From Providencia alcalifaciens (GTDB taxonomy: Bacteria > Pseudomonadota > Gammaproteobacteria > Enterobacterales > Enterobacteriaceae): 64,000 nucleotides of DNA. The notes beneath the pieces were generated by a model that was not told where the DNA came from, searched no databases, and saw only the letters and a list, made by a program, of their open reading frames with translations. Positions 21,768 through 26,668 of this stretch are shown piece by piece (position 1 is the first letter of the stretch; each line of letters opens with the position of its first letter). The DNA lies in contig NZ_CP084296.1 in assembly GCF_020271745.1 (NCBI RefSeq), positions 744,001-808,000 on the forward strand. Direction: 5' to 3'. A program made the translations under genes and the position numbers.

Positions 21768-22670
21768 ATGGCGAATAATGCAAGTTCAATACCTCATGAT
21801 GCCGCCTTTAAAGGCTTTATGACAAAGCAGGGTAATGCCCGAGATTTCTTTGAGCTTCATTTACCTGAGCAAATTAAACGCTTGTGCGATTTCGATACGC
21901 TTACCCTCATTAATTCAGCTTTTATTGATAGCAAACTGAGAACTCGGTTTTCCGATGTTCTCTATTCTGTACAAACAAAAATGGGAGATAGCTATATCTA
22001 TTTGTTAGTCGAGCATCAGTCGACACCTGACAAGTTGATGGGTTGGCGTTTAATGCACTACGCATTTATGGCGATGAATCAACATCTACAGCAAGGGCAT
22101 AAAACCTTACCGCTCGTTGTCCCCATTCTGTTTTATCACGGGGAAACATCCCCCTATCCTTATGACGGTACATGGACACAATGCTTGCCCCACTCAGAAA
22201 TAGCTCATGACCTGTATAGCAGCCCATTCCCGTTGGTGGATATCACCATAGTCGAGGATACCGAAATAGTTAGTCACCGCAAAATTGCTGTGATGGAACT
22301 CGCAATGAAACACAAAAAACTACGAAATGACCACCAGAGAGTCACTGAACACTTCGTTCAAATATTAAACAGCCACTATAATGACAAAGATGATGTGATC
22401 ACTATCTTGAATTACTTATTTATCATCCTGGATTCACCTTATTACACTCATATCGTTAAGACGTTAGTCGATCAAGCCGAAAACCATCGAGGAGCTATTA
22501 TGAATATTGCACAGCGGTTAAAAAATGAAGGAATAGAGGAAGGAATAGAGAAAGGAGAAAAAAAGAATCAACTCAAAGTGGCATTGATGAGCTTACAACT
22601 TGGTTTAAGCATCGACGTTATCAGCAAACTCACTGGGTTATCAGCCAGTGAAATTCAAGCGCTCAATTAA
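21768..22670 (+). CDS. Rpn-family recombination-promoting nuclease (PD-(D/E)XK, Transposase_31)
   Basis: ATG 21768 is chosen because 'SIPHDAAFKGFM' is the usual family N-terminus; the product has 300 residues. The nuclease core reads 'RFSDVLYSV' (Asp63), then 'IYLLVEHQS' (Glu82, Gln84), the D...ExQ arrangement of Rpn enzymes. RpnA-type proteins cut DNA and several act as toxic anti-phage nucleases. The C-terminal segment begins with an internal in-frame ATG (22500) preceded by GAGGAG, predicted to give a separate 56-residue protein. A paralogue of that C-terminal segment follows as its own gene at 22706. All catalytic residues are present, so the nuclease looks functional. Confidence 0.88.
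   Translation: MANNASSIPHDAAFKGFMTKQGNARDFFELHLPEQIKRLCDFDTLTLINSAFIDSKLRTRFSDVLYSVQTKMGDSYIYLLVEHQSTPDKLMGWRLMHYAFMAMNQHLQQGHKTLPLVVPILFYHGETSPYPYDGTWTQCLPHSEIAHDLYSSPFPLVDITIVEDTEIVSHRKIAVMELAMKHKKLRNDHQRVTEHFVQILNSHYNDKDDVITILNYLFIILDSPYYTHIVKTLVDQAENHRGAIMNIAQRLKNEGIEEGIEKGEKKNQLKVALMSLQLGLSIDVISKLTGLSASEIQALN
22500..22670 (+). CDS. Candidate intragenic small Rpn protein (RpnS-like)
   Basis: Inside the Rpn frame, ATG 22500-22502 is preceded at 5-6 bases by GAGGAG, a strong Shine-Dalgarno for a mid-gene position. Starting there gives 56 residues beginning 'MNIAQRLKNEG' and ending 'LTGLSASEIQALN'. Published work on E. coli Rpn genes describes exactly such short C-terminal products made from internal starts, which bind and neutralise the full nuclease. 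Actual translation here is inferred from the RBS and from the separately encoded paralogue downstream. Confidence 0.55.
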   Translation: MNIAQRLKNEGIEEGIEKGEKKNQLKVALMSLQLGLSIDVISKLTGLSASEIQALN

Positions 22671-22705
22671 ACAACAAATTATGTAAGCATCGAGGATAAA
22701 TAGTT

Positions 22706-22999
22706 ATGAATATTGCCACACGTTTAAGATATGAAGGATATAAGAAAGGATTTGCACAAGGATTTGTAGAAGGATTTGAGGAAGAATTCACTGTGGGATT
22801 AGAAACAGCACTCAAAGTAGGTAAAGCCATCTGCCAACAAGAGGTAACTTTAAATGCACTACAACTTGGCTTAAACATAGAAACTATCAGTAAAATCACT
22901 GAATTATCAATCAGTGAAATTCAAGCACTTACTGACCGCCCATCAACAATAGCCTCCTGCGAAGCAAAAAGGCTATCTCTCATCAATGCCACTGGCTAG
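22706..22999 (+). CDS. Free-standing paralogue of the Rpn C-terminal (RpnS-like) domain
   Basis: A 97-residue product with its own GAGGA-containing leader before ATG 22706. Its start 'MNIATRLRYEGYKKG' and its 'LQLGLNIETISKITELSISEIQAL' region parallel the C-terminus of the upstream Rpn protein, with about 25 extra Gly/Phe/Glu-rich residues between them and a unique tail. It has no nuclease residues. It may be a remnant of a second rpn copy, or an independent antitoxin-like protein for the nuclease next door. It ends 3 bp from the convergent tusA stop. Confidence 0.6.
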   Translation: MNIATRLRYEGYKKGFAQGFVEGFEEEFTVGLETALKVGKAICQQEVTLNALQLGLNIETISKITELSISEIQALTDRPSTIASCEAKRLSLINATG

Positions 23000-24179: not shown

Positions 24180-25376
24180 TTATTCGAGCGCGCGAGCCAG
24201 TAGTGAAATTGGGTGATCACATTTCTTACTGGTGGACATTTCAATTTGCCATTTACAGGTTTCACAGTCGGTGATCACCATATCCGCGCCGCTCTCTTCA
24301 ATTTGGCGGAACAGCCCCGCACCAATACCTTGGGAAACTTCGTAGTTCTCTTTTTTGAACCCGTAAGTTCCTGCGATACCACAACATTGTGAATCTAAAA
24401 CAATTAGTTCTACACCCGGTACACGCTTAATCAGCTCAAGGGTGTAGGATGTCCAACCCATTTTTTCCATATGGCACGGTGTGTGGTACGCCACTTTTAA
24501 CGGTGTGTGTTTCAGTTTCAGCTCGCGCCCTTCTTCCAGAAGACGATAAATATAGCGGGTCGCTAATTCAATGTTATCGCGCATCTCAGAAGTATCGACA
24601 TCCAGCACATGGGTATACTCATCACGAATGGTAAATGTACAGGTCGATGAAGTCGCCACGACGGGAATATGTTTCTCCAAAATCGTCTCTTGGAGTGATT
24701 CCAAATTCACATTCGCTTGGCGTTTCGCTTGCTTCATAAATCCGTTTGCGATCAGTGCCACACCACAACATTTTTCACGTTTTAACAGCTGAACACCGAT
24801 GTTCATTCCATTGAAAACTTTGATTAAATCTTTACCGAGTTGCGGATGGTTATAATTCACATAGCAGCCATGGAAGAATGCTACCTGCTCCTCAAATTTT
24901 GCCTGCTCTGCGGCGTGTTTACCGTACCAACGACGGAAAGTACCGAATGAGTATTTCGGCAGCTCACGGCGATGGTCAATTTTCAGGGCTTTATCCAGAA
25001 TTTGGCGAACGGGTTTTAAGCCAGTAATGGTATTGACTACAGGTGCAAATGGGGTCGATAAGGAGCCCATAATGTCCGTATGGCTTAAAATCGCATCACG
25101 CAGTTTCGGTTTCTGCTGGCTATAGGTATTACGAGCACGTGCGATAATGTCGCCAATCTTCACATCAGACGGACACGCCACTTCACAACGCTTACAGTTG
25201 GTACAGAATTTCAATGCATCATCGTACATCATCGGATCTTTTAAGCGTAAACGCTCACCATCAGGACCCGCTTGTTTTGGTCCCGGATACAGTGGGTTCG
25301 CCTTTGCCACTGGGCAATAGGTGGTACAAACGGTGCATTTTATACAGCTTTCAAAGCTTGCATCTTGAATACTCAT
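24180..25376 (-). CDS. glpC: Anaerobic glycerol-3-phosphate dehydrogenase subunit C
   Basis: A 398-residue iron-sulfur subunit. Two ferredoxin-type clusters, 'CIKCTVCTTYCPVAKANP' and 'CTNCKRCEVACPSDVK', lie in the first 70 residues. Two CCG-type domains follow ('CCGVALIA' and 'CCGIAGTYG', with 'CETCKWQIE'). GlpC links the GlpAB dehydrogenase to the membrane and menaquinone under anaerobic conditions. Its start overlaps glpB by 4 bp. Confidence 0.95.
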   Translation of the reverse strand: MSIQDASFESCIKCTVCTTYCPVAKANPLYPGPKQAGPDGERLRLKDPMMYDDALKFCTNCKRCEVACPSDVKIGDIIARARNTYSQQKPKLRDAILSHTDIMGSLSTPFAPVVNTITGLKPVRQILDKALKIDHRRELPKYSFGTFRRWYGKHAAEQAKFEEQVAFFHGCYVNYNHPQLGKDLIKVFNGMNIGVQLLKREKCCGVALIANGFMKQAKRQANVNLESLQETILEKHIPVVATSSTCTFTIRDEYTHVLDVDTSEMRDNIELATRYIYRLLEEGRELKLKHTPLKVAYHTPCHMEKMGWTSYTLELIKRVPGVELIVLDSQCCGIAGTYGFKKENYEVSQGIGAGLFRQIEESGADMVITDCETCKWQIEMSTSKKCDHPISLLARALE

Positions 25377-26668
25377 TGCGCCACCTCCGCCTGCATGGCT
25401 TTATCTTTAGCAAATTCATTCACGATTTCATTCGCGGCATATAAGCCACTAACCAGCGAAACCCCGGCACCACAACCTTGAGTGAGCGGATCAAACCCGC
25501 TTAATACTGCACCCGCAACATACAGGTTTTCGATGGTTTCACCGTGTTTTTTACCGCGTAAATTCCCGTCTGTTTGTACACCGAACGCCATATACGGTTG
25601 GGAAGCAAAGAACTCTTTATTCGTCCATTTGGCGCGATCGCCGATTTCGCCTAAATCCAAATTCATCAAGGGTTCATACACTTGGTCAAATTTCGCCACC
25701 AAGCCGTTATTAAAGAAACTCCCCGTCGCCAACACAAAGTGTTTAGCTTTCAATGAAATATTGCCGTGATTACGGGTTTGCACAGATTCAATACGTGACC
25801 CCACGAAATTGACTGAAGTGACTTTATCCCCTGGCATCATGATCCCGCCCTGATGGCGGAATTGGCGTAATAGCATTTCATGAAGGCGAATACCTAATAA
25901 AGATGGTGGCAATGTTGGCAGTAAAAATAACGGCTTACCTAAGCGTTTTTGTAACTCTAACATTGGCTCTTCACTGTCTAGACCAATACACGCAGGCATA
26001 AACACTGCATCCGCATTGGCGACTAACGGTGCAATTTCTTCCACGATTTGCGCCATATTTTCAGGTCTATCTAACCAGCGCGCCACGTTAATCGCCCGGA
26101 ACTCGCTTGGGTTTTCTCTTAAACGATCAAGCAGTGGTAAGTGAACATAGCACGCTTCTGCTTCTAACCCTTGACGGTCTAACTCATCCGCCACCATTTG
26201 CGGTTGAAAATCGAGAAAACCTTCAATGCCCACAACCGCAATTTTGCCTAATTCCATCGGTTGATGGAGCGCGGTTGTTGGCACCGATTCAGGGCTAAGC
26301 CATGTCATTCGCTTATGGCCTAACGGCGTAATACGGTAATGGTTTTCTTCGCACGAACCTTTCAAATGCAGCCCGGCTTGCTGTAGTGTAGTCTGTGCCA
26401 ATTTAGCCAGCTCAGTGACTTTTTCTGCCCCAATCAAACTGTATGGATGACTCGGTGCTTGTTGTTTTAGTGCTTCCAGCATGGATAGCGGTTGCTCGAC
26501 TTGGGTACCATCAGGAAGATGCGTTAATAAATCCAATGACCCTGACGAGAAATGCAGTGCGTTCTGCCCTGCACTCACAATGGCACAAGAGAGCCCTGAC
26601 TGAGTCAGGCGAATTCCACAGATAAGGCCGGCTAAGCCTCCGCCCATCACCACTGCATCATATTTCAT
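25373..26668 (-). CDS. glpB: Anaerobic glycerol-3-phosphate dehydrogenase subunit B
   Basis: A 431-residue flavoprotein with an N-terminal dinucleotide-binding motif 'DAVVMGGGLAGLICGIRL' and a second FAD contact 'FVLATGSFFNNGL' near residue 310. It forms the catalytic dimer with GlpA. It overlaps glpA by 11 bp and glpC by 4 bp. Confidence 0.95.
   Translation of the reverse strand: MKYDAVVMGGGLAGLICGIRLTQSGLSCAIVSAGQNALHFSSGSLDLLTHLPDGTQVEQPLSMLEALKQQAPSHPYSLIGAEKVTELAKLAQTTLQQAGLHLKGSCEENHYRITPLGHKRMTWLSPESVPTTALHQPMELGKIAVVGIEGFLDFQPQMVADELDRQGLEAEACYVHLPLLDRLRENPSEFRAINVARWLDRPENMAQIVEEIAPLVANADAVFMPACIGLDSEEPMLELQKRLGKPLFLLPTLPPSLLGIRLHEMLLRQFRHQGGIMMPGDKVTSVNFVGSRIESVQTRNHGNISLKAKHFVLATGSFFNNGLVAKFDQVYEPLMNLDLGEIGDRAKWTNKEFFASQPYMAFGVQTDGNLRGKKHGETIENLYVAGAVLSGFDPLTQGCGAGVSLVSGLYAANEIVNEFAKDKAMQAEVAQ

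Follow-up and report, generated by a model that had tools for sequence, protein, structure and literature searches.

The Rpn proteins (PF04754/COG5464) have only recently been recognised as a family of gene-within-gene toxin-antitoxin systems that act in phage defence and whose specificity is set by repeats in the dimerisation helix. Free-standing copies of the small internal product, RpnS, have been described in E. coli downstream of rpnE, where the gene is called ypaA, and downstream of rpnC; the study (Zhong et al. 2023, PMC10327210) further reports that YpaA is produced as a protein, that the downstream copy is lost by deletion or fusion, and that one extra repeat abolishes neutralisation, the last being shown for RpnC only.

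The locus described here lies in a window of 64,000 nucleotides from Providencia alcalifaciens (contig NZ_CP084296.1, positions 744,001 to 808,000). It resembles E. coli rpnE/ypaA and rpnC with its downstream copy in that a separate RpnS gene lies downstream of an intact, internal-start-bearing rpn in the same orientation, and in that the arrangement is recurrent, the repeat number differs between the two copies and the free copy is lost by recombination. YpaA is a young near-copy lacking an aromatic ladder, whereas the window copy has a longer helix, a ladder, and a core only 69% identical to that of its neighbour; a ladder like that of the window copy is present in the copies that follow rpnC in E. 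coli. Classical two-gene type II toxin-antitoxin operons likewise place a separate antitoxin-like gene beside the toxin. Here, in contrast, that gene lies downstream and is paralogous to the tail of the toxin itself, and the antitoxin is not encoded solely outside the toxin gene, as the intragenic RpnS start and its Shine-Dalgarno sequence are retained. The arrangement itself is thus already published for E. coli, a precedent that the preliminary description of this DNA had missed. What is new is an additional member with an unusual helix: the free copy has a longer, apparently aromatic-lined helix that we saw in no intragenic copy examined.

The nuclease gene, its internal start and the downstream gene

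The features of the locus are as follows.

21768..22670, + strand: rpn (RpnL), 300 aa, PD-(D/E)XK YhgA-like nuclease (Pfam PF04754, E=3.5e-70)
22489..22494, + strand: Shine-Dalgarno GAGGAG of the internal start, 5 nt before ATG 22500, conserved family-wide
22500..22670, + strand: RpnS encoded within rpn, 56 aa, with roughly two 4-aa repeat units (sequence; C-terminal part of TIGR01784, E=1.2e-8)
22692..22696, + strand: Shine-Dalgarno GAGGA of the free copy, 9 nt before ATG 22706, duplicated with the coding segment (alignment from 22685)
22706..22930, + strand: body of the free-standing rpnS paralogue, conserved over 75 codons (uninterrupted in three species; dN/dS, profile match, AF2)
22736..22807, + strand: six 12-nt units GYKK-GFAQ-GFVE-GFEE-EFTV-GLET, a Gly/aromatic ladder (sequence, class statistics)
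22931..22999, + strand: C-terminal extension, not conserved, the last 23 codons, reading through former intergenic DNA
22949..22976, no strand: hairpin ATAGCCT...AGGCTAT inside the read-through, common to species without the free copy

The preliminary description had recognised an intact Rpn nuclease with Asp63, Glu82 and Gln84. This holds: the 300-residue RpnL has the Transposase_31 domain (PF04754) and, besides these three residues, Asp11. The activity of E. coli RpnA is abolished by D11A, D63A, E82A and Q84K (PMC5350276). The 56-residue product initiated at ATG 22500 behind GAGGAG, and a separate gene at 22706-22999 (97 aa, with its own ribosome binding site), were likewise correctly placed.

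We surveyed the internal start over 179 distinct rpn loci, almost all from Enterobacterales. At least 4 nt of AAGGAGG stand just 5' of the internal-start codon in 94% of these loci, compared with 4% of 1267 other in-frame internal ATGs; the codon itself is ATG in 166 loci, GTG in 9, and another in the rest. Judged from these sequences, the internal start is more than chance; amino-acid constraint at this position may contribute, yet the contrast is large. The rpn gene of the window also carries an internal start with a Shine-Dalgarno sequence, from which RpnS would be made. Neither the ribosome binding site of the internal start nor that of the free copy has RNA structure beyond chance, a consensus scan for a promoter of the free gene did no better than on shuffled sequences, and PADLOC gave no meaningful match at the locus.

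A profile built from free and intragenic segments matches E. coli RpnA-S (7TH0; E=3.5e-6), placing the free copy in the same small helical family, while a PDB sequence search with the full protein gave no match. AlphaFold2 predicts helices at residues 3-53, 58-65 and 69-74 of the free protein (pLDDT 86, pTM 0.53). Searching with this model, Foldseek placed 7TH0 at rank 12 with a TM-score of 0.70 on the target, but with E-values above 1, and thus the fold assignment rests mainly on sequence. RpnA-S is made from within its rpn gene and its first helix is short, in contrast to the long one predicted for the window's free copy.

Origin, selection and history of the free copy

The intragenic and free copies are homologous at the DNA level (22482-22663 against 22685-22929, local score 121, the maximum of 1000 shuffles being 49). 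The duplicated block begins just before the Shine-Dalgarno sequence: the antitoxin cistron was copied in tandem along with its ribosome binding site, and the second gene is not a decayed rpn. We rejected the alternative, which the preliminary description had named as part of one refuting case, that the 22706 ORF is a truncated full-length second rpn, since homology starts only ∼20 nt before its ATG and the orthologues share an identical boundary. These alignments and the profile match show that the duplicated block carried its ribosome binding site along, without the nuclease part, and belongs to the RpnS family. The earlier suggestion that the antitoxin-like part may exist both within rpn and as its own gene was right as to the two copies. 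Near-identity, which had been noted for the opening 'MNIATRLRYEG', is confined to the 11 N-terminal residues and the final ∼28; core identity is 69%, the free copy has 20 additional residues in the repeat helix, and its 23 final codons are unconserved. Core motifs and the shared Shine-Dalgarno block point to the neighbouring intragenic copy as the relative, although the cores are short and their identity is modest.

Over its 75 conserved codons, the free copy has pairwise dN/dS values of 0.06-0.17, compared with 0.10-0.14 for the nuclease domain. The three-species tree gives 7 synonymous and 3 nonsynonymous changes (p=0.0014 against neutrality), these counts being obtained by halving pairwise sums. 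Substitution patterns thus show the free copy to be maintained by purifying selection in three Providencia species. The DNA of 22931..22999 is in another frame in G002, and is non-coding, 3' of the rpn stop, in G022 and G023; the hairpin within it is not more stable than shuffled sequences (z -0.99).

The rpn gene adjoins tusA in 22 of 24 Providencia genomes, and the history of the locus was compared over the seven closest orthologues. The free copy is intact in the source genome, in G002 and in G009, each a different species. In the outgroup P. rustigianii (G014, ∼82% DNA identity) it is degraded to a pseudogene with the spacer unchanged, and it is absent from G022 (P. rettgeri PROV023), G023 and the P. 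alcalifaciens genome G001. The simplest reading of this distribution is that the free copy is ancestral and was lost later.

Several further observations concern rpn genes elsewhere. The source genome has two others, L002 (C1:848512-849450) and L003 (C1:2676558-2677562), 1.8 Mb apart, whose nuclease-domain proteins are identical up to the internal start and whose RpnS tails differ, as if the toxin part had been homogenised while the tails were exchanged. We rejected the idea that the free copy is the cognate antitoxin of either gene, since the start-to-core lengths are mismatched. Broken rpn genes, split or with stops, are found in Providencia relatives (G012 C1:2681130-2682037; G019 C2:418777-419528), as are several orphan C-terminal fragments of ∼90-120 aa.

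Repeat length and the aromatic ladder

The preliminary description had proposed searching other Providencia and Proteus genomes for free-standing short copies 3' of rpn. Such copies were found in G002 and G009, and tblastn together with a profile scan of downstream DNA over 182 distinct rpn loci revealed ∼20 loci with a free copy or a remnant of one. Such copies thus recur widely in Enterobacterales, and their breakpoints differ, which indicates several independent origins. The internal Shine-Dalgarno sequence is retained at 16 of 18 loci bearing a free copy and at 154 of 161 others, so that loss of the internal start is not in excess where a free copy is present. At one locus (L097, G150 C11), rpn is followed by two tandem free-standing RpnS genes with unlike repeat numbers.

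In the window, the repeat helix of the free copy is 20-24 residues (5-6 repeat units) longer than that of the neighbouring RpnL/RpnS. Its length is the same in all three species, whereas that of the intragenic copy varies among those genomes. More widely, none of the 17 pairs that have an intact free copy and could be scored is matched in repeat length (three of these pairs being orthologous). In E. coli rpnE/ypaA, with strains picked across the similarity ranking, the 11 allele pairs show no correlation between the cis and free repeat numbers (rho 0.29, p 0.39), and in no pair are the two equal. These data support the view that, at the level of sequence, the helix length of the free copy does not follow that of its intragenic neighbour. 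They do not reveal selection for mismatch, which we rejected: control intragenic tails from different loci at equal core identity differ in length in 77-89% of pairs, and a permutation test on the E. coli alleles expects 0.8 matches, with P(0 matches)=0.39. Hypervariability alone predicts almost as much mismatch as is seen.

The aromatic residues of the window's free protein, at positions 12, 16, 20, 24 and 28, form one stripe of the predicted helix 3-53. Position 2 of the repeat unit stays aromatic while positions 3-4 vary. Similar ladders, with the unit consensus G-[FY]-[QR]-[EK], occur in free copies of other lineages: L216, L358, L374, one from Klebsiella grimontii (L204) and those downstream of rpnC in E. 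coli. Defining a ladder as at least three F/Y/W between residue 11 and the last 34, we found it in 7 of 55 unique free copies, some of which are remnants of broken rpn genes, and in 0 of 281 unique intragenic tails (p=2.3e-6); this is a post hoc value, the pattern having been spotted in four cases before testing and the test made partly on the same loci. Clustering to lineages leaves six, with p of 7e-5 to 2.5e-4. Among loci added later, ∼2 of ∼22 free copies and 0 of 56 intragenic tails have a ladder, a difference not significant alone; these loci were found partly with an aromatic-rich query, which was equally able to find aromatic intragenic tails. One query was a composite sequence used for searching only.

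In a free copy the antitoxin is no longer forced to co-evolve with the toxin tail, and so such copies may reveal what changes once that constraint is lifted. It is possible, though we put this forward tentatively, that some RpnS proteins, once free of the nuclease, repeatedly evolve on their dimerisation helix a G-[FY]-x-x ladder that intragenic RpnS lacks, and would make up an orthogonal, self-pairing class insulated from the neighbouring toxin. If so, ladder-bearing RpnS proteins would be antitoxins directed against other RpnL alleles, or would have a new function, and orthogonal pairing is to be predicted.

Possible roles of the free-standing protein

Our preferred explanation, which we hold with slightly better than even confidence, is that the 22706 gene encodes a free-standing paralogue of RpnS whose specificity has changed. 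The antitoxin segment of rpn was duplicated in tandem together with its ribosome binding site, from which the free protein would now be translated. Dimerisation through the lengthened, aromatic/Gly-lined first helix is predicted. By the published repeat rule for RpnC, pairing with the neighbouring RpnL is likely to be poor, the helix being 20-24 residues longer and unchanged when that of the neighbour changes. The free protein would then be an antitoxin that pairs with itself or acts on a non-cognate partner, such as a different or incoming RpnL allele. Being diverged, and having a longer helix lined by aromatics, it probably does not simply restrain the neighbouring nuclease. Of the two readings offered in the preliminary description, these comparisons better support that of a spare inhibitor of different specificity.

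It is unlikely that the free copy merely raises the dose of antitoxin against the neighbouring RpnL. Its membership of the same family, its own ribosome binding site and its position beside rpn on the same strand would all suit such a role, as would the existence of E. coli YpaA as a protein (Zhong et al. 2023, PMC10327210); however, the helix length is off by 5-6 repeat units and does not track the neighbour, the helix surface is changed, and a single extra repeat abolishes neutralisation in the RpnC experiments of the same source.

We similarly regard as improbable that the gene is a silent cassette or a relic of duplication, produced because the tail is unstable and mainly serving for, or lost through, recombination with the intragenic copy that swaps the RpnL tail. 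In favour of this, the RpnL tail of G001 ends in free-type DNA, 28 nt exactly as in the window's free copy, as expected from recombination of the intragenic with the free copy, and in E. coli strains without ypaA (L277, L278) the free-type C-terminus sits on RpnE. The pseudogene in G014 and the clean losses in G001, G022 and G023 also speak for it. Against this stand the excess of synonymous changes in the three species and the retention of the aromatic position while neighbouring codons of the repeat unit differ.

The other earlier reading, a transition to a conventional two-gene layout in which the free gene replaces the intragenic one, is very unlikely and favoured only by G009, where the internal Shine-Dalgarno sequence is weakened to GAGAAA and the free copy kept, since free copies are gained and lost repeatedly (the outgroup P. 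rustigianii having a dead one and some closer relatives none), the internal start is generally retained, and no locus among those surveyed combines a dead internal start with a length-matched free copy.

Two further points concern the surroundings and annotation of such genes. In the window, glpCB (24180-26668) lies ∼1.2 kb past the locus, and E. coli rpnE is directly 3' of glpABC, which is probably coincidence. RefSeq mostly marks the ypaA-type gene in the E. coli loci L065 and L266-L276 as a pseudogene ('missing N-terminus') despite a ribosome binding site and ATG, and with such calls, made in the majority of the E. coli records examined, annotation pipelines miss a real gene class. Some E. 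coli records instead name the gene Rpn/YhgA-type helix-turn-helix domain-containing protein.
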